NCBI RefSeq assembly: GCF_902705855.1
Contig: NZ_CACSIJ010000012.1
Span: 282,770-346,769, forward strand
From: Zhongshania aliphaticivorans
Lineage (GTDB): Bacteria > Pseudomonadota > Gammaproteobacteria > Pseudomonadales > Spongiibacteraceae
Length of the DNA: 64,000 nt
Direction: 5' to 3'
A model generated the notes under the pieces. It saw nothing but the letters and a program-made list of their open reading frames with translations, made no database searches and was not told where the DNA came from. The position numbers and the translations under genes are program-made. Every line of letters begins with the position of its first letter. Position 1 is the stretch's first letter. This document shows positions 53,872 through 60,718 of the stretch, piece by piece.

Positions 53872-55182
53872 TTACTTCCCCATGCTCTCGTTGAGCACCC
53901 GCACCTCGCGCTGAGGGAAGGGGATTTGGAAGCCGTTGTCACGCATAGCTTCAAAAATCATCAGGAGCAAATCGCCACCGACACGGTTTTTACCGTCATC
54001 GATACCCATCATCCAAAACTCGACGAACATATTCACGCCAGAATCACCAAAACTGTCAATTTCGCAATCGGGTCGTTCTTCAAACGGAATACTCTCGCCG
54101 CTAAGAACCTGCGCATGCGAGGCCACGGTTTCTTTGATAATTTCGACTAACTGACGGATATCAGAATCGTAAGCTACCGAAAAATCGACGCGGTAACGTT
54201 GCTTTTTATTTTTGTGAGTCCAGTTAGTAAAACTCTCCGTTACGAACTTTTCATTTGGCACCATGATGTCTTTGCCATCATAGGTTTCCAAGGTGGTCGA
54301 TCTAAGAGTCAGCTCCCGAACAAATCCGGTGCGGCCATCTTCAAGCTCAATGTAGTCATCTAGGGAAATGGATCGGTCGAGTAAAATAATAATGCCAGAG
54401 ATAAAGTTGGATGCTATCGCCTGCAAACCAAAACCAAGCCCCACACCCAAGGCACCACCAAACACCGCCAAAGCAGTGAGATTAACCCCCATGACTTGCA
54501 ACAGTAGCAAGAAAATCAAAACAAAAATGGCCACTTCAAACAATTTTGCGGCCACTTCCCTGGTTCTAAAATCGAGCTTTTCCTGACGTCGAATAATCTC
54601 CTGGCCCGTGCTATTCGACACTCGCCCCAACCAAAATAGCAGCGAGCCAAACAAGGCCACGCGAACAACGCCATAAGCTGAAATATCTATATTACCCACA
54701 GAGATTTTCATGTCTTCGAGTATGGCAATAATCGGCTCAAGCACATTCAGTAAATGCAAGAACAGCAATGGCTGGCCAATCCAGCGAAACACAAACGCGA
54801 TGAAATCATTTTTTACATAATCACGAATTAGCGACCTAAAAACCAACATCATGGCGACAAATAACGCCGTTCTCACCAGCCAGAACGCCCCTATGAACTG
54901 CGCACTCAATTCAACAGAAAAACTCAAAACCAAAATGGTAAGCAAGGGGAATATCAGCACTCCCAGCTTGCCGGTAAGCCTACGCAGCGGTTTAAGCGGC
55001 GCATTCGCTGGCGCATCGGCAAAGAGAGGAACAAACTTACGAATGTAGGTGGTAATAAAAAAGGTTATACCAAAAACGACTAATACCAACGCTAGCTGGG
55101 CGTAGGTCTGAGTTTGCAAGAAAACCGCAAGTATCTGCTCCGCAAGGTCTATAGAAGCCTGTTTGTAATTTTCAAAATCCAT
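53872..55182 (-). CDS. MscS-family mechanosensitive ion channel
   Basis: 436-residue inner-membrane channel that opens under osmotic downshock. About six N-terminal TM helices precede the pore helix AVFGGALGVGLGFGLQAIASNFISGIIILLD. After it come the beta domain SISLDDYIELEDGRTGFVRELTLRSTTLETYDGKDIMVPNEKF and the alpha/beta cytoplasmic cage. The extra TM helices make it longer than E. coli MscS (286 residues), like YbdG/YnaI-type homologues. Confidence 0.92.
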   Translation of the reverse strand: MDFENYKQASIDLAEQILAVFLQTQTYAQLALVLVVFGITFFITTYIRKFVPLFADAPANAPLKPLRRLTGKLGVLIFPLLTILVLSFSVELSAQFIGAFWLVRTALFVAMMLVFRSLIRDYVKNDFIAFVFRWIGQPLLFLHLLNVLEPIIAILEDMKISVGNIDISAYGVVRVALFGSLLFWLGRVSNSTGQEIIRRQEKLDFRTREVAAKLFEVAIFVLIFLLLLQVMGVNLTALAVFGGALGVGLGFGLQAIASNFISGIIILLDRSISLDDYIELEDGRTGFVRELTLRSTTLETYDGKDIMVPNEKFVTESFTNWTHKNKKQRYRVDFSVAYDSDIRQLVEIIKETVASHAQVLSGESIPFEERPDCEIDSFGDSGVNMFVEFWMMGIDDGKNRVGGDLLLMIFEAMRDNGFQIPFPQREVRVLNESMGK

Positions 55183-56114
55183 ACTATACGCCCATGTTAT
55201 TCATTCCAATCTTATGAAATTCAACTCTTCTATTTGATCCAACTCTCACTGGCACCGCCACATGACTTCACTAAAAACTAAGTATCAGGAAATACAATAC
55301 TGTGAAAACCCAAGCTTTCGATACAACCCGACCATCTACGATCAGCAACTTCGCTACTATCCTCTCATATGCCGGCGCTATCTGCGATGAAGGCGGTTGG
55401 GCTCCTACAATCATTTCCTCGCTAGTATTTCAGGCATTAATATCTTCGCGTTGCTTAAGGTATCCTCAACCCTATAGCTAAGCGAATTACAGAACGTCAA
55501 TACTCTTCTACTAAAACTGCGACACTAAATACTCAATTGAGGCCCACCAATATCACTAGGACTATCCTCAATGTGTCACATTAATATTTCCCCAAAGCAC
55601 CGGCCTTCATATACCAATTAAACCGCTGAATAGTAAACGGCGACATTGTCGACTTCTCCGACAAAGAGAATTTCAAGCTGCATCTTGCCGTTTCTAGAAA
55701 ACATCGTTATGTGAGGCGGCCAAGTAGAGTTAGACTACACAATAACCACAAAACGATAACCGCCACTCTACCACTTTCTCTTAATAATCTTATTACTTCC
55801 TCTAAACCGGCTTCTCAGATTAGCAACAGCCATCATCAGCCGCCATACAATTATCTATACTTTATTAAAGTCGCGTACTACTTTCCGTGCCCCCAAAAAG
55901 TGATGTAGATCTCGCTTTTAAAGTCATCACAGCTAAATGCGTACTAATACGAATACGAGAATTTATGTAACTCCGACATAGTCTATCCACACGGGGGATG
56001 TATATCCCAATAACTAGTTTGCTGCTGACAAGACATTAATCGAACAAGCTATCTGTTTCGTTTAAAAACTCTGTTTAGCAACACACGGTGCACATAGTCT
56101 AGCGAACGAAAGTC
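55183..56114. other. Gene-free stretch before the BLUF/GTPase module
   Basis: This 932-base stretch, the longest gap in the window, is AT-rich. I found no frame with convincing coding features; the longest plus-strand frame (55711-55908, 65 codons) has a composition unlike neighbouring proteins and no ribosome site. No tRNA, repeat array or decayed gene could be recognised by eye. It may contain the promoter of the downstream module, a decayed gene or an unrecognised RNA. Confidence 0.5.
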
Positions 56115-56942
56115 ATGAAACGAATTGCGTGTATAAGCACGATCACACAACATCCTGATGAGGGAGACGCTTCCACACAACTCATGGAGCTCTATAACTC
56201 AACGCGGGTTTACAACAGAGAAAACGATATCACCGGCGTATTTCTTGTTTCAGGTAGCAGCTGCCTGCAAATTATGGAAGGCAACGCAGAATCCCTCGCA
56301 AGTGCCATTTACCGTATGGGGCGCGATTCTCGTCTTAGTGACTTCAGCGTTGTAATGAATTGCAACAACGATATCGCCGAATTTTCAGGCTGGAAAATCC
56401 GTATCATTAGCTCTGGAGCTAACGCACATTTGGATTTTATCGCAAGACTTAAAGAAACCCTAGCAGACAAAATTCAAGCAAAAAACAATCACGACAACGC
56501 ACGCTTAGACAGCTTCTTTGGCAAACCAGAGCTTAGCGCTAACGTTCAACCGCCAACGTTAGCCGCTCCGACGGACGTCAATAGCACTAGCAAAAAAACA
56601 TACGATAATTGTGTAATTTCCGTTTCTGCATGGCCACGACCAACACAAATACGGATGACACCAGAGCTAATTCGTATCTGTTCCAATCTCACGAAAAGAC
56701 CCGCACATTTCGAACGTATTTTAGCCTTGAATCTTTGCTCCTCTACTGAAAAATTAACTCATTACTTATCTGCGTTAGAAAGCTTAGGTTTGCTAAAAAC
56801 GCACTCTAGCGTCGGAACCCCAAATTTGAGAGTTGTTAACAACCCACCCAAAGCAACCAATGCGGCAACACAAACAGTCAGCAGTACCGCCGACAGATTC
56901 AGCCGTGTTCTAAAACGCTTTATCGCATCAGCTAAAGCTTAG
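56115..56942 (+). CDS. BLUF-like sensor protein lacking the photoactive Tyr, with C-terminal helical domain
   Basis: 275-residue protein. Residues 1-95 follow the BLUF fold: KRIACIS (strand 1), [24 protein letters not shown] and FSGWKIRII. Asn34 and Gln52 align with the flavin-binding Asn and Gln of PixD/AppA. The Tyr essential for photochemistry (LIYSS in PixD) is Cys6 here, so light sensing by the known mechanism is unlikely. After a polar linker, residues about 165-225 ([22 protein letters not shown]...[10 protein letters not shown]) look like a winged-helix or DUF4388-like domain. It is the first gene of a module with a small GTPase and two Roadblock proteins. Confidence 0.72.
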
Positions 56943-56955
56943 GAAGTCGCTAATA

Positions 56956-57525
56956 ATGGATCAGATATATAATAAATTGGCGATAGTGGGTGAAGTAGGT
57001 GCAGGTAAAACTCAGCTCATTAACACTATTAGTGAAATCTCCCCGTTTGCTACCGAAGCGAGATCTTCGGTCGATATTGGCAAAGAATACACAACCGTTG
57101 GCATTGACTATGGTCGCTTGAGCCTCGATGCCGATATAGCACTGGGACTTTTCGGCTTACCAGGTCAAAAACGATTTTCGTTGCTATGGGATATGGTGAA
57201 CACCTCATTGTGGGGGCTCGTCATTCTAGTCAAATACGGTGATGGCGTTAATATCGACGCAATCGACGATATCCTTACCCACTTCCAGCCACTTAAAGAT
57301 AACGTCCCGGTCATAGTCGGTGTCAGCCATTCCGAAAACGCGACTGCCGACGAGTTAGACGTACTTTTGGAATTTTTAGAACACGTTTTACAAGGGCACG
57401 GGCTATCGGCCCCGATCATGCCCGTTGATCCGCGAGATATTGAGTCCTCTCTCATGCTGCTCCAGATGATCGATGCAATAAATAACACAGACGAGTATGA
57501 AGGAGCACAACTAAATGTCGTTTAA
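56956..57525 (+). CDS. Small Ras-like GTPase (COG2229/MglA-like)
   Basis: 189-residue stand-alone GTPase. G1 is GEVGAGKT (residues 12-19), the switch I region is [15 protein letters not shown], and G3 is replaced by FGLPGQKRF, where PGQ matches the MglA/COG2229 switch II. The usual NKxD (G4) is replaced by GVSHSEN, so guanine specificity may be altered or relaxed. It starts 13 bases after the BLUF-like gene and overlaps the next gene by 11 bases. Proteins of this group act as polarity or signalling switches regulated by Roadblock partners. Confidence 0.82.
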
Positions 57526-57922
57526 TAATATGTTGAGTGAACGACTTATCGACTTATTCGATGATTATTCGAACAACGATAATGCGATAGAAATTATTTC
57601 ACTGGCGACAACTGACGGGTTTCCCGTCCATCATTTTTCGCGCCTACATGAAGGATTTGATGTCGAAACCATGGCCGCTGCTGCAAGTACGCTTTACTCA
57701 GTAAGCAATGCTGTCACTAAGCAGATTTTATCAAAAAGCTTCAAAATTACGTTTATTGAATCTGAGCAAGGCAATGTCGCTTTTGTCGCCCTACAATTGA
57801 ACGACAAGGATTTCGTACTATCCATGTCGGCCAAAAGCAATATGAACATCGCTAATTTGCGTTTATTAATTAACAGATTAGCAAATGAAATTGGAGATAT
57901 TGATCTAGCCGATGTCGCATAA
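57515..57922 (+). CDS. Roadblock/LC7-domain protein (first copy)
   Basis: 135-residue single-domain protein. The pattern [19 protein letters not shown], then [20 protein letters not shown], then [28 protein letters not shown] fits the Roadblock/LC7 fold of MglB-type GTPase regulators. It starts within the last codons of the GTPase gene (AAGGAG upstream), implying coupled translation and a fixed ratio of the two proteins. Confidence 0.8.
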
Positions 57923-58035
57923 ACCTTAAAGCATTCAAACCTTGACATATACGTCGTAAAACGTAATTAGAAAACAAACTACACCATTAACAATTTAATA
58001 ATAGCTATACGAATTTAATCAGGAGAGTAAAAAGT

Positions 58036-58398
58036 ATGAGTAATTTAAATGACGCGGTAAAAAACTTAATGGAAATCGACGGTGCGATAGGTTGTGCCGT
58101 TGTCGACTACACCTCCGGAATGCTATTAGGTTCCGCCGGCTCTGGGGTTGACTTAGAAATGGCTGCAGCTGGAAACAGTGAAGTAGTCAAGGCGAAGTTG
58201 AAAACAATGAAATCGCTTGGAATCACCGGCAATATAGAGGATATTTTGATCACACTTGACACACAGCTGCATATTATTCGTCCAAGCACAACCAATGAAG
58301 GCCTTTTTATCTATCTCGTACTTGATAAAAAGAACTCAAATCTAGCGCTTGCCCGCCGCAAAACGGCGGATATCGAGAGTGCACTGCAGCGAGTTTAA
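58036..58398 (+). CDS. Roadblock/LC7-like protein (second copy)
   Basis: 120-residue single-domain protein with the same outline: AIGCAVVDYTSGMLLGSAG, a central helix (LEMAAAGNSEVVKAKLKTM) and IEDILITLDTQLHIIRP...LFIYLVLDKKNSNLALAR. It is shorter and diverged from the first copy. It has its own AGGAGAG site and lies 113 bases downstream, so it could be made from the same transcript or a separate promoter. It may form homodimers or a heterodimer with the first copy. Confidence 0.75.
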   Translation: MSNLNDAVKNLMEIDGAIGCAVVDYTSGMLLGSAGSGVDLEMAAAGNSEVVKAKLKTMKSLGITGNIEDILITLDTQLHIIRPSTTNEGLFIYLVLDKKNSNLALARRKTADIESALQRV

Positions 58399-58456
58399 TT
58401 AACCGTAAAATCGGATCCAACACGTTTCAATTGTATTTGGCTCCGTATAGCATAAT

Positions 58457-58486
58457 AAAAACGCCCTCTTTTTGGAGGGCGTTTTT
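58457..58486. terminator. Bidirectional terminator between the Roadblock gene and glnN
   Basis: AAAAACGCCCTC (58457-58468), loop TTTTTG and GAGGGCGTTTTT (58475-58486). T-runs on both strands let it end the BLUF/GTPase/Roadblock transcript and the convergent glnN transcript. Confidence 0.85.
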
Positions 58487-58543
58487 ATTTCAAAAAATAT
58501 AATCTCAAAAAGTTGAGCGCAGCCGAAAAAGACTGCGCACAGA

Positions 58544-60718
58544 TTATTTGATGAATAACATTTCAGAATATTTCGGCAGTGGCCACAAATCATCTGCAAC
58601 CAAAGTTTCCAAGGTGTCAGCGTGGCCACGAACTTCAACCATCAAACTACGCAAGGTGCTTGCAGCGTACTGCATATGCGCTTCAGTAGAATCAAAGTCA
58701 TGCACTTCTAATGCAGCGCTGAGTTTTGATACCGCTGCCATCATCGCGTTGGCTTCACCGGCAACAGCGGCAGCAATGCCGCTGTCTAAAGTAATATTCA
58801 ATGCCGCCATTGACGACGCGGTCGTTGCGATTTGCGATAGGTACTCGACCGCCGCTGGGTAAATCATAGTAGTCGCCATATCGACAACCAACTTAGCTTC
58901 GACCTCAATAGACAGCAAGTATTGCTCTGAATAAACCTCAAAGCGGCTTTCTAGCTCGACGGGGGTTAATACGCCAGTGCTAGAGAACAACTTAACAACA
59001 GACTCTTCGCGGAAAGCTGGCAATGCGTCTGCAGAAGTCGGCAAATTTTTAAGACCGCGATCCTCAACAGCCATGCGGTGCCATTCAGCTGAGTAGCCGT
59101 CGCCACCAAAAATTACGCTGCTGTGACCTTCCATCAATTCCTTCAAAACTTTAACTGCAGCAACCGGCTTGCTGGTGCCAGTGGCTAACTCAGTTTCAAG
59201 CTTGTCAGCAATCCAGTTCAAAGAATCAGCCAACATGGTATTCATCGCTACCAGTGGGCCAGACACTGAGGCTGAAGAACCTACCGCACGGAATTCAAAA
59301 CGGTTGCCAGTGAAGGCAAACGGTGACGTGCGGTTACGGTCGCCAGGATCACGTTCAAATTTAAGGATTTGGCTCAAGCCTGAATCCATAAAGCCACCCA
59401 CTTCAGAGGTCAGTAGCTTACCTTCTTTAATGTCGTTAAATACGCGCTCTAACTGGTCGCCCAGATAAACAGACAAAATAGCTGGAGGCGCTTCGTTAGC
59501 ACCTAAACGGTGATCATTTGACGCTGACGCGATAACAGCACGCAAAAGAGGCCCAAAAAGGTGCACGCCACGAATTACTGCACCACAAAAGAGCATAAAG
59601 TTAATATTTTCATGGGGTGTGCTACCTGGGTCCAGTAAATTACCCTGAGTTGCGTTACCCACCGACCAGTTCACGTGTTTTCCTGAGCCATTCACGCCTG
59701 CAAAAGGTTTTTCGTGCAATAAACATACAAAGCCATGACGCTTTGCAGTCAGCTTTAGCAGGGTCATCAGTAGCTGCTGGTGATCAGATGCGATATTCGC
59801 TGCCTCATAATAGGGCGCGATTTCAAACTGACCTGGTGCTACTTCGTTGTGATGGGTCTTAGCTGGAATACCTAAACGGTACAATTTGTCTTCTAAATCT
59901 TGCATGAAGACCTGAACACGCTCCGGAATAGCAGCAAAGTAATGGTCGTCAAACTGCTGACCTTTCGCTGGCGGGGCGCCAAACAAAGTACGCCCCGCTA
60001 GCAGTAAATCTGGACGACTATTGGCGAAGTTCGAGTCAATCAGGAAATATTCCTGCTCAGCACCGCAGCTAGAGTTCAGCGCAGCAATGTCAGTTTCGCC
60101 CATTAAAGACAGAACACGCTGCCCGGCTTTATTCATTGCAGAGTTAGAGCGCAGCAGTGGAATTTTCTTATCCAGCGCTTCACCGGTCCAACTCATGAAA
60201 ACGCTAGGAATCATCAGCGTTGAACCGTTATCGGTGTGCATAATGTAAGCAGGGCTGGTTGGGTCCCATGCGGTATAACCACGCGCAGCGTTGGTCATAC
60301 GCAGGCTGCCGTTAGGGAAAGAAGAGCCGTCTGGCTCACCTTTAATTAACAAGCTACCGGTGAATTCAGTAATCGCATTACCGTCTGAATTGGTAATGAT
60401 AAAGCCGTCGTGCTTCTCAGCAGTGGCGTTGGTCATTGGGTAGAAAATATGCGAGAAAAACTTAACGCCTTTACCTAGCGCCCAATCTTTCATAGCCGCA
60501 GCAACAACGTCAGCCGTAGCTGAATCAAGCGGAGCACCAGTCTGTACGGTAGTTTTCACTGCCTTAAATGCATTTTTAGACAGCGCCTCCTCCATCTTCG
60601 CAAGATTGAATACATCACTTGCCCAGATTTTACTGAGAGGTTCAGGCATCGTAACGTCTATCGACTTACGATTAACAATTTGAGAAACAGCTTGAACACG
60701 CGCTTGATTGCGACTCAT
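58544..60718 (-). CDS. glnN: Type III glutamine synthetase
   Basis: 724-residue ATP-dependent glutamine synthetase of the GSIII family, usual length. Signatures include SCGAEQEYFLID, HHNEVAPGQFEIAPYYEAAN, FAGVNGSGKHVNWSVGN and NRTSPFAFTGNRFEFRAVGSS, the GSIII ATP and glutamate sites, with the long C-terminal helical extension. It makes glutamine from glutamate and ammonium, typically under nitrogen shortage. A sigma-54-type promoter lies about 90 bases upstream. It starts at ATG 60718 behind a GAGG site. Confidence 0.95.
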   Translation of the reverse strand: MSRNQARVQAVSQIVNRKSIDVTMPEPLSKIWASDVFNLAKMEEALSKNAFKAVKTTVQTGAPLDSATADVVAAAMKDWALGKGVKFFSHIFYPMTNATAEKHDGFIITNSDGNAITEFTGSLLIKGEPDGSSFPNGSLRMTNAARGYTAWDPTSPAYIMHTDNGSTLMIPSVFMSWTGEALDKKIPLLRSNSAMNKAGQRVLSLMGETDIAALNSSCGAEQEYFLIDSNFANSRPDLLLAGRTLFGAPPAKGQQFDDHYFAAIPERVQVFMQDLEDKLYRLGIPAKTHHNEVAPGQFEIAPYYEAANIASDHQQLLMTLLKLTAKRHGFVCLLHEKPFAGVNGSGKHVNWSVGNATQGNLLDPGSTPHENINFMLFCGAVIRGVHLFGPLLRAVIASASNDHRLGANEAPPAILSVYLGDQLERVFNDIKEGKLLTSEVGGFMDSGLSQILKFERDPGDRNRTSPFAFTGNRFEFRAVGSSASVSGPLVAMNTMLADSLNWIADKLETELATGTSKPVAAVKVLKELMEGHSSVIFGGDGYSAEWHRMAVEDRGLKNLPTSADALPAFREESVVKLFSSTGVLTPVELESRFEVYSEQYLLSIEVEAKLVVDMATTMIYPAAVEYLSQIATTASSMAALNITLDSGIAAAVAGEANAMMAAVSKLSAALEVHDFDSTEAHMQYAASTLRSLMVEVRGHADTLETLVADDLWPLPKYSEMLFIK

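Follow-up and report, generated by a model that had tools for sequence, protein, structure and literature searches.

An MglA-type GTPase module of Zhongshania whose BLUF-fold sensor carries cysteine at the site of the photoactive tyrosine

In a 64,000-nucleotide stretch of the Zhongshania aliphaticivorans genome (contig NZ_CACSIJ010000012.1, positions 282,770 to 346,769 of the forward strand; hereafter the window), four consecutive genes encode a sensor with a predicted BLUF fold and winged helix, an MglA-type small GTPase, a Roadblock protein (RB1) and a second, putative Roadblock protein (RB2). The module recurs in many genera, and its sensor carries at the site of the photoactive BLUF tyrosine either tyrosine or, as in the window, cysteine. 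We hypothesize that a blue-light input to an MglA/MglB switch is ancestral and that, in Zhongshania and its kin, it has become a non-photochemical sensor in which the cysteine matters, a reading we consider fairly probable. A bolder version, in which naturally light-gated Ras-like GTPase switches were twice independently converted to a cysteine-based non-light (for example redox) sensor with a rebuilt flavin pocket, we offer as a tentative one that may well overreach. The parts of the module are as follows.

56115-56942, forward strand: sensor gene, 275 residues, with a predicted BLUF-fold domain (about residues 1-100), a flexible linker, a winged helix (about 163-233) and a C-terminal helix (258-274)
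56115-56414, forward strand: BLUF-fold domain, residues 1-100, with Cys6, with Asn34, Gln52, Asp71 and Arg73 kept, and with Leu74 at the position of AppA His85
56601-56813, forward strand: predicted winged-helix domain, residues 163-233, common to non-BLUF Group 3-type sensors
56886-56939, forward strand: basic helix at the C-terminus, residues 258-275, modelled with moderate confidence as a helix over 258-274
56956-57525, forward strand: gene for the MglA-type small GTPase, 189 residues, PGQ present (from motif reading and Pfam)
57515-57922, forward strand: RB1 gene, Roadblock/LC7 (MglB-like), 135 residues, over the cut-off of Pfam Robl_LC7
58036-58398, forward strand: RB2 gene, predicted second Roadblock-fold protein, 120 residues, from the order of elements in its AlphaFold2 model

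The initial annotation, made from the DNA letters alone, had described the first protein as BLUF-like, with Asn34 and Gln52 kept and with Cys6 where the photoactive tyrosine should stand, and these residues are confirmed. The profile search that it proposed matches Pfam BLUF (PF04940) to residues 19-95 at E=4.7e-11 and 43.1 bits (cut-off 25), from profile position 15 onward; for comparison, four tyrosine-bearing sensors score 77.7-92.4 bits from positions 1-4 and a second cysteine-bearing sensor 43.5 bits from position 16. In the AlphaFold2 model of the sensor (mean predicted local distance difference test score, pLDDT, 83.1) the BLUF part runs strand, helix, strand, strand, helix, strand, strand, which we take to be the BLUF order. 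The pLDDT of ten-residue blocks is 86-98 in residues 1-100 (94-98 in 21-90) and 89-96 in 161-230, falls below 50 in the linkers (143-159 and much of 234-251), and is 74 and 60 in the last two blocks. From the Pfam score and this predicted order of elements, we assign the N-terminus to the BLUF fold family. The Asp-x-Arg-His signature (AppA Asp82-Arg84-His85, with His85 mapped through the alignment to chain 2iyg) is incomplete in the window sensor, which has Leu74 for the histidine.

The neighbourhood survey proposed with that annotation finds the four genes conserved together. Four further Zhongshania genomes (G005, G007, G008, G009) carry all of them in this order, and among named records of the genus those of Zhongshania sp. 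BJYM1 and Zhongshania aquimaris hold the module. Among 18 genomes of the genus, the window's included, a relative of the sensor is found in 8 and RB2 in 5; G006 holds one weak stand-alone BLUF match beyond those 8. Further afield, a sample of 293 genomes across the order includes 34 with a GTPase match, the best match being at most 40% identical in 24 of them, and in a sample of 369 across the class 16 genomes have an RB2 match that reaches E 1e-20. Loci for comparison came from GTPase similarity (the best 80 of 245 matches) and from genome samples; some loci represent the same genome twice, and Psychrobacter is over-represented. BLUF-bearing modules occur in Zhongshania, Gilvimarinus, Pseudomaricurvus, Teredinibacter, Oceanobacter, Parathalassolituus, Psychrobacter, Arenicella and others, in the order sensor-GTPase-RB1-RB2 or, in Psychrobacter, Arenicella and some others, RB2-sensor-GTPase-RB1. 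All four genes are present in 54 of the 61 distinct BLUF-bearing modules of this biased set, and the pairing of GTPase and Roadblock proteins noted at the outset thus recurs together with the sensor. Several of the incomplete modules (L094, L107, L109, L115, L116, L117, L123) are cut by contig ends; L123 has neither RB1 nor RB2 within its 10.5 kilobases, and L115 has no RB1. Tyrosine-bearing BLUF sensors were also met in five of 26 further loci (L202, L203, L204, L217, L218), L203 looking like the same gene as L084. As a separate observation, Psychrobacter sp. NZS113 (L102) carries two modules side by side within 7.4 kilobases, and Psychrobacter glacincola 1447 has three copies on separate contigs (L097, L105, L108).

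Aligning 65 BLUF-family proteins, a set that includes the separate BLUF gene of locus L138, we observed tyrosine at the photoactive site in 39 and cysteine in 25; in the remaining one the site is missing with the gene start. The replacement is thus cysteine in 25 of 25 tyrosine-less proteins. Asn34 and Gln52 are kept in all 39 tyrosine proteins, and in the cysteine proteins Asn is kept in 21 of 25 and Gln in 15 of 25. A hand-picked alignment of 44 of the 65 (21 tyrosine and 23 cysteine sensors; L053, L121, L138 and near-copies are among those left out) was compared with 33 frames of other gammaproteobacterial BLUFs from 30 loci, a set that favours high scorers and in which one frame has a stop; within the flanks of these 30 loci there is no GTPase or Roadblock relative of the module kind. 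The other BLUFs have tyrosine in all 32 frames covering the site, and Asn and Gln in 33/33. The clearest difference lies at the position of AppA His85: histidine is present in 33/33 other BLUFs, 20/21 tyrosine sensors and 0/23 cysteine sensors (38/39 and 0/25 over all 65 proteins). Gln is kept in 21/21 tyrosine sensors and 15/23 cysteine sensors, and the residue of AppA Arg84 in 31/33, 21/21 and 15/23 of other BLUFs, tyrosine sensors and cysteine sensors, respectively. The cysteine sensors also differ from the other BLUFs at position 43 (Phe in 18/23, against Leu in 33/33), at position 45 (Val in 20/23, against mostly aromatic residues) and at position 50 (mostly aliphatic or Cys, against Phe in 32/33). 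The sensors of Psychrobacter, Arenicella and others retain an intact BLUF signature (Tyr, Asn, Gln, Asp-x-Arg-His).

The direction of the change was read from trees of the GTPase, RB1 and RB2, with the sensor columns excluded. In a tree of 55 rows, reduced from 106 by dropping long, sparse, near-identical and most non-BLUF rows, 21 cysteine rows form one clade (97/92), and a topology in which the tyrosine rows form a single clade is rejected by the approximately unbiased test (p-AU 4e-52). Locus L121, a cysteine sensor from a metagenome bin, adjoins an Arenicella-like tyrosine module, and joining it to the main cysteine clade is likewise rejected (p-AU 6.5e-5; the groups tested were named after the first tree had been seen, and L121 is a long row). 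A quick tree of all 106 rows agrees: tyrosine-bearing modules surround the cysteine clade, whose nearest tyrosine relatives are two uncultured Pseudomonadales (L077, L085; support 88). Because tyrosine modules surround the cysteine clade and tyrosine is present in all other BLUFs examined, we take the cysteine to derive from tyrosine, apparently on two occasions. The initial annotation had proposed a complete signalling switch whose former light sensor now senses another ligand or acts as a scaffold; the former light sensor gains support from the ancestral tyrosine, and the remainder stands as a proposal.

All four genes are under strong purifying selection. Comparing the window with L047 and L048 (pairs with L049 were set aside, the synonymous rate dS being mostly saturated), the ratio of nonsynonymous to synonymous rates (dN/dS) is 0.03-0.08 for the BLUF part at dS 0.9-1.4, 0.005-0.04 for the winged helix, 0.02-0.04 for the GTPase, 0.05-0.06 for RB1 and 0.03-0.06 for RB2; the sensor linkers evolve faster, with finite values of 0.19-0.46. 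Over residues 1-100 the 23 cysteine sensors have a mean pairwise identity of 38% and seven invariant positions (Arg3, Cys6, Arg31, Gly41, Glu55, Gly56, Trp93). Four of these (Gly41, Glu55, Gly56, Trp93) do not vary in the other BLUFs covering them either; Cys6 is not invariant there, and Arg3 is found in 13/33 of those BLUFs. From its invariance we read Cys6 as probably functional, with packing and mutational ease as the alternatives.

The sensor has a second part, which the initial annotation had called a winged-helix-like output. Compared by hhalign over their C-terminal 125 residues, the BLUF sensors match each of two sets of sensors without BLUF (probability 98.9, E=3.8e-17, and 97.5, E=5e-12). 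Among 106 distinct modules, 22 have a cysteine BLUF sensor, 39 a tyrosine BLUF sensor and 45 another sensor or none recognised, the last including L118, whose contig ends before the sensor; the 106-row tree unites L118 and all 61 BLUF-bearing modules in one group (Shimodaira-Hasegawa-like approximate likelihood ratio test 94). In two Kangiella loci (L130, L137) and one of Marinicella (L141) the gene before the GTPase encodes little more than the winged helix (115-155 residues). In a Marinicella contig outside the BLUF group of the tree (L138) a separate 145-residue tyrosine BLUF gene overlaps a winged-helix-only gene, and in L133 a separate tyrosine BLUF gene lies further upstream. What stays constant next to the GTPase is thus the winged helix, with an exchangeable N-terminal domain: BLUF, another domain, none, or BLUF as a separate gene. 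This suggests that the N-terminus is where the signal enters. A protein of about 151 residues, not assigned to a family, precedes the separate tyrosine BLUF gene in two Marinicella contigs (L138:3755-4213, L133:2778-3233) and may be part of that separate-BLUF system.

What the winged helix does bears on a different explanation of the module, in which it binds DNA and the sensor is a transcriptional regulator gated by the GTPase, as was suggested in 2015 for Group 3 MglA systems (PMC4316618; this and the other papers are cited from the passages available). We regard this as rather unlikely. It draws on the winged-helix fold itself, predicted here by AlphaFold2 and in that paper by Phyre2, on the net charge of the whole domain (median +2, range -4 to +8 in 44 sensors) and on two Zhongshania genomes that have a full-length orphan sensor and lack the GTPase. 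In the putative recognition helix (residues 209-224), however, the median net charge is -1 (range -4 to +1 in the same 44), unusual for a DNA binder, and none of the positions conserved in at least 80% of these sensors (Trp-Pro, Cys, Leu) is basic. The slightly acidic helix weakly favours protein contacts over DNA; the winged helix, constant beside the GTPase genes, would be no less suited to passing a signal on to the GTPase/Roadblock complex than to acting on DNA. Of the annotation's winged-helix output, then, the fold holds in the model and by homology, and an output to DNA is not required. The tail behind it is basic (median net charge +4 over the last 20 residues of 44 sensors). In the window its hydrophobic moment is 0.62, reached by 32 of 2000 shuffles; those of three other sensors are 0.51, 0.54 and 0.15, and we reject an amphipathic tail as a general trait, the last of these failing.

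Several observations weigh against a non-photochemical sensor in which the cysteine matters and which acts through its winged helix. Tyrosine to cysteine is a single codon transition, and repeated cysteine may partly reflect mutation; the sequences share history, and the invariance of Cys6 does not amount to 23 independent observations. Position 95, Met in 30/33 other BLUFs, already varies among the tyrosine sensors. The window sensor keeps Asn34, Gln52, Asp71 and Arg73, and among the 23 cysteine sensors Asp71 is kept in 19, Asn34 in 20, and the equivalent of OaPAC Arg63 (window position 67, mapped by offset) is Arg or Lys in 22. The winged helix reaches no Pfam cut-off. Finally, three Zhongshania genomes (G004, G010, G015) hold the sensor only, with no GTPase, RB2 or Robl_LC7 protein found in them; two of these orphan sensors are full-length (L051, L052) and the one in G010 is truncated (L053), which could reflect either decay or a GTPase-independent role.

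Some of these points would suit a BLUF-fold domain that is a signal-blind scaffold or dimerisation unit, with Cys6 in strand 1 serving for packing only and control of the switch lying elsewhere. The ease of the one-step codon change, the variation of the pocket Gln, Arg and Ser among cysteine sensors, the invariable loss of the histidine and the departures from ordinary BLUFs at positions 43, 45, 50 and 74 are all as such a scaffold would have them. A pure packing site, on the other hand, would sometimes admit Ala, Val, Ser or Leu, and the cysteine is retained in 23 of 23 sensors in spite of their low mean identity, having apparently arisen twice; we therefore think the scaffold unlikely.

The kept pocket residues suit another idea, that the cysteine form is still a flavin photoreceptor, working by flavin photoreduction or by a LOV-like, light-driven flavin-cysteine bond. 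In OaPAC, Asn30, Gln48, Arg63 and Asp67 contact the flavin (PMC11533990); mapped by offset, the equivalent of Asn30 is retained by 20 of the 23 cysteine sensors, that of Gln48 by 15 and that of Asp67 by 19, and the equivalent of Arg63 is Arg or Lys in 22. Since several flavin-contact residues are thus kept in most of them, flavin binding by the cysteine sensors is possible. The cysteine aligns with the flavin-site tyrosine, and LOV proteins lacking their cysteine can signal by flavin photoreduction (PMC4682037). Clade-wide flavin photochemistry is nevertheless hard to square with the loss of the histidine in 23/23 and of the Gln in 8/23, and we judge a flavin photoreceptor quite improbable. 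In simulations of AppA, His85 and Arg84 respond to movement of the flavin (PMC10278134), and mutation of the tyrosine abolishes the light-induced red shift (PMC5899715). In the cysteine sensors canonical photochemistry has probably been lost. The retention of Asn34 and Gln52 stressed by the initial annotation holds for the window protein and fails across its clade, and since the two are not kept throughout that clade they argue only weakly for retained flavin chemistry. Among the papers listed on BLUF tyrosine-to-cysteine changes none contains Y21C, and the available text of PMC4630285 has no match to the six residue terms sought.

That the module is a chance neighbourhood or a decaying pseudogene operon is, despite its patchy presence (RB2 in 5 of the 18 genus genomes) and the truncated orphan in G010, highly improbable and for the window copy refuted, chance adjacency being ruled out by the gene order conserved across many genera and decay by the dN/dS of all four genes.

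The GTPase has the MglA-type PGQ that the initial annotation had read. In Pfam it lies just over the cut-off of ATP_bind_1 (28.7 against 27 bits) and under those of small_GTP and Ras; a single-sequence search finds no solved relative at E up to 0.01, and a profile search of structures matches eukaryotic Rab and LRRK2 Roc chains. Its G4 motif lacks the lysine (VGVSHSE in the window; [VI]G[VI][ST]H-x-[DE] in 15/15 aligned GTPases) and its G5 motif is D-x-R (15/15). In loci L160 and L161 related GTPases lie in longer frames (318-329 residues), with a pair of them close together in L161, which suggests fusion to a further domain. Of the two Roadblock proteins claimed, RB1 is secured by Pfam Robl_LC7 (25.2 bits, cut-off 23) and by profile matches to CvnB5 (E=4.5e-6) and other Roadblock structures. 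RB2 reaches no Pfam cut-off and has weak sequence matches to LAMTOR5 (0.0058) and a Roadblock chain (0.12); its AlphaFold2 model (mean pLDDT 88.1) runs helix, two strands, helix, three strands, helix, which we assume to be the Roadblock order. As a homologue of RB1 it was rejected, the profiles showing no significant match to each other, and its assignment as a Roadblock-fold protein therefore rests on the predicted topology and the weak matches. Over 21 relatives RB2 is 55-96% identical to that of the window.

These parts are those of a known type of system. Group 3 MglA systems, described in 2015 from beta- and gammaproteobacteria, consist of a protein of unknown function, MglA and one or two MglB proteins; the first has a receiver-like N-terminus and a winged-helix-like C-terminus by Phyre2, and the MglA often lacks the lysine of G4 and has DAR as G5 (PMC4316618). 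The present module agrees in its winged-helix protein, its MglA, its one or two MglB-like partners, its G4 and G5 motifs and its taxonomic range, and differs in having a BLUF domain, with Tyr or Cys, in place of the receiver-like one. Because the G4 and G5 motifs match and the sensor C-termini are homologous to those of non-BLUF sensors, we read it as a Group 3-type system in which BLUF replaces the receiver-like domain, an assignment made by parts; our own trees cover relatives found by similarity. The main text of that paper has no mention of BLUF. We found no description of a BLUF-bearing MglA form among the full-text papers listed, a provisional result, subscription literature being mostly outside its coverage, and a search there for Roadblock, Psychrobacter and GTPase together found nothing. 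The statement of the initial annotation that this exact set is undescribed therefore appears to hold for the BLUF-bearing form, and it does not hold for the architecture of winged-helix protein, MglA and MglB (PMC4316618). New here are the exchangeable N-terminus, the intact BLUF signature in Psychrobacter, Arenicella and others, and the change of tyrosine to cysteine, apparently made twice.

Other systems are alike in part. The BLUF photoreceptors AppA, PixD, OaPAC and BlrP1 share the Pfam family and the order of elements, and the Psychrobacter and Arenicella sensors keep their Tyr, Asn, Gln and Asp-x-Arg-His; the window's clade differs in its cysteine, its lost histidine, its often lost Gln and its coupling to a GTPase/Roadblock module. 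The actinobacterial conservons (CvnA-D; Group 2 MglA) also follow a four-gene plan, in which sensor, Roadblock protein and MglA-type GTPase are joined by one further protein, and RB1 matches CvnB5. Unlike them, the present module has two Roadblock proteins, unites sensor and winged helix in one protein and lacks a histidine kinase: Pfam finds no kinase domain such as that of CvnA among the four proteins. DUF742, the family of CvnC, gives no Pfam match at E up to 1. Myxococcus MglA/MglB(/MglC) likewise pairs a GTPase with Roadblock partners; its MglA belongs to Group 1, with a consensus G4 (PMC4316618). The Snodgrassella mgl locus, stated to be Group 3, has a GTPase and Roadblock proteins and, in the passages available, no mention of a BLUF sensor; mutation of an orphan mglB there changed the edges of colonies, an effect that its authors put down to type IV pili (PMC11112851). 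In Synechocystis a BLUF protein, PixD, controls pilus-based motility (PMC9090330, whose available text names MglA only in reference titles), but it acts via PixE on PilB1, with no GTPase.

From these observations, we propose the following working of the module. A BLUF domain would have entered a Group 3-type system as an intact blue-light receptor. In the window's lineage the tyrosine would then have become cysteine and parts of the flavin pocket would have been re-lined, giving a protein that is no longer a canonical BLUF photoreceptor yet stays a selected, working sensor, its cysteine serving, for example, as a redox-reactive thiol or a ligand contact. A cue at the BLUF domain would rearrange the winged helix and tail helix via the flexible linker, and these would alter how the RB1/RB2 pair promotes GTP hydrolysis or nucleotide exchange by the GTPase, whose nucleotide state would change; the GTP-bound form would act on an effector. 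By analogy with Myxococcus MglA and the Snodgrassella Group 3 mgl locus, type IV pili are a plausible target, transcription being the other. Across genera, no recurrent neighbour hinting at the output was seen in twelve neighbourhoods inspected by eye, where genes outside the module recur only between Psychrobacter loci L059 and L061; the Kangiella loci L130 and L137 also share neighbours.

If the tyrosine forms work as their residues suggest, a single operon would place a bacterial Ras-like GTPase under direct blue-light control, and nature would have supplied an optogenetic switch for GTPases of the polarity type. With the tyrosine-bearing sisters, such a light-gated MglA switch can be put to a direct test and, given a version that light can switch, the output of Group 3 systems could be probed with a lamp. 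These systems gain a handle on a sensor protein formerly described only as of unknown function, and the tyrosine and cysteine forms, set side by side, may show the before and after of a photoreceptor turning into another type of sensor.

The surroundings of the module in the window are as follows.

53872-55182, reverse strand: MscS-type channel gene, upstream of the module and divergent
about 58457-58486, strand unassigned: G+C-rich hairpin with A and T runs at its flanks, a probable terminator, read by eye
58544-60718, reverse strand: glutamine synthetase III gene, downstream of the module and convergent

The initial annotation had described four tightly packed genes on one strand with a shared terminator. 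The four same-strand genes recur in order, and the packing is tight for the first three, with a gap of 13 base pairs between sensor and GTPase and an overlap of 11 between GTPase and RB1; RB2 stands 113 base pairs from RB1 and, being less tightly packed, could have its own promoter. The hairpin, visible by eye in the interval that separates RB2 from the convergent glutamine synthetase III gene, is not among the sites of a terminator scanner, which finds 3 terminator-like sites against 2.9 expected. Promoter prediction is uninformative, giving 3 sites where shuffled sequence would give 6.9, and no RNA family reaches its gathering score in 55183-58700. The roughly 200 base pairs 5' of the operon (55900-56114) hold blocks conserved across three Zhongshania genomes, including most of the final 25 bases before the start codon, and are a possible regulatory region.

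A last observation concerns the fold of the sensor. Its closest solved relative by sequence is no photoreceptor; it is an axonemal inner-arm dynein f/I1 light chain (8glv_D9, E=0.0011), and the Pfam family TEX47 matches the sensor below its cut-off, as it does a tyrosine-bearing sensor (E=9.8e-5). From these matches, a BLUF-like domain may occur in a dynein as well; the dynein motor family also carries Roadblock light chains.

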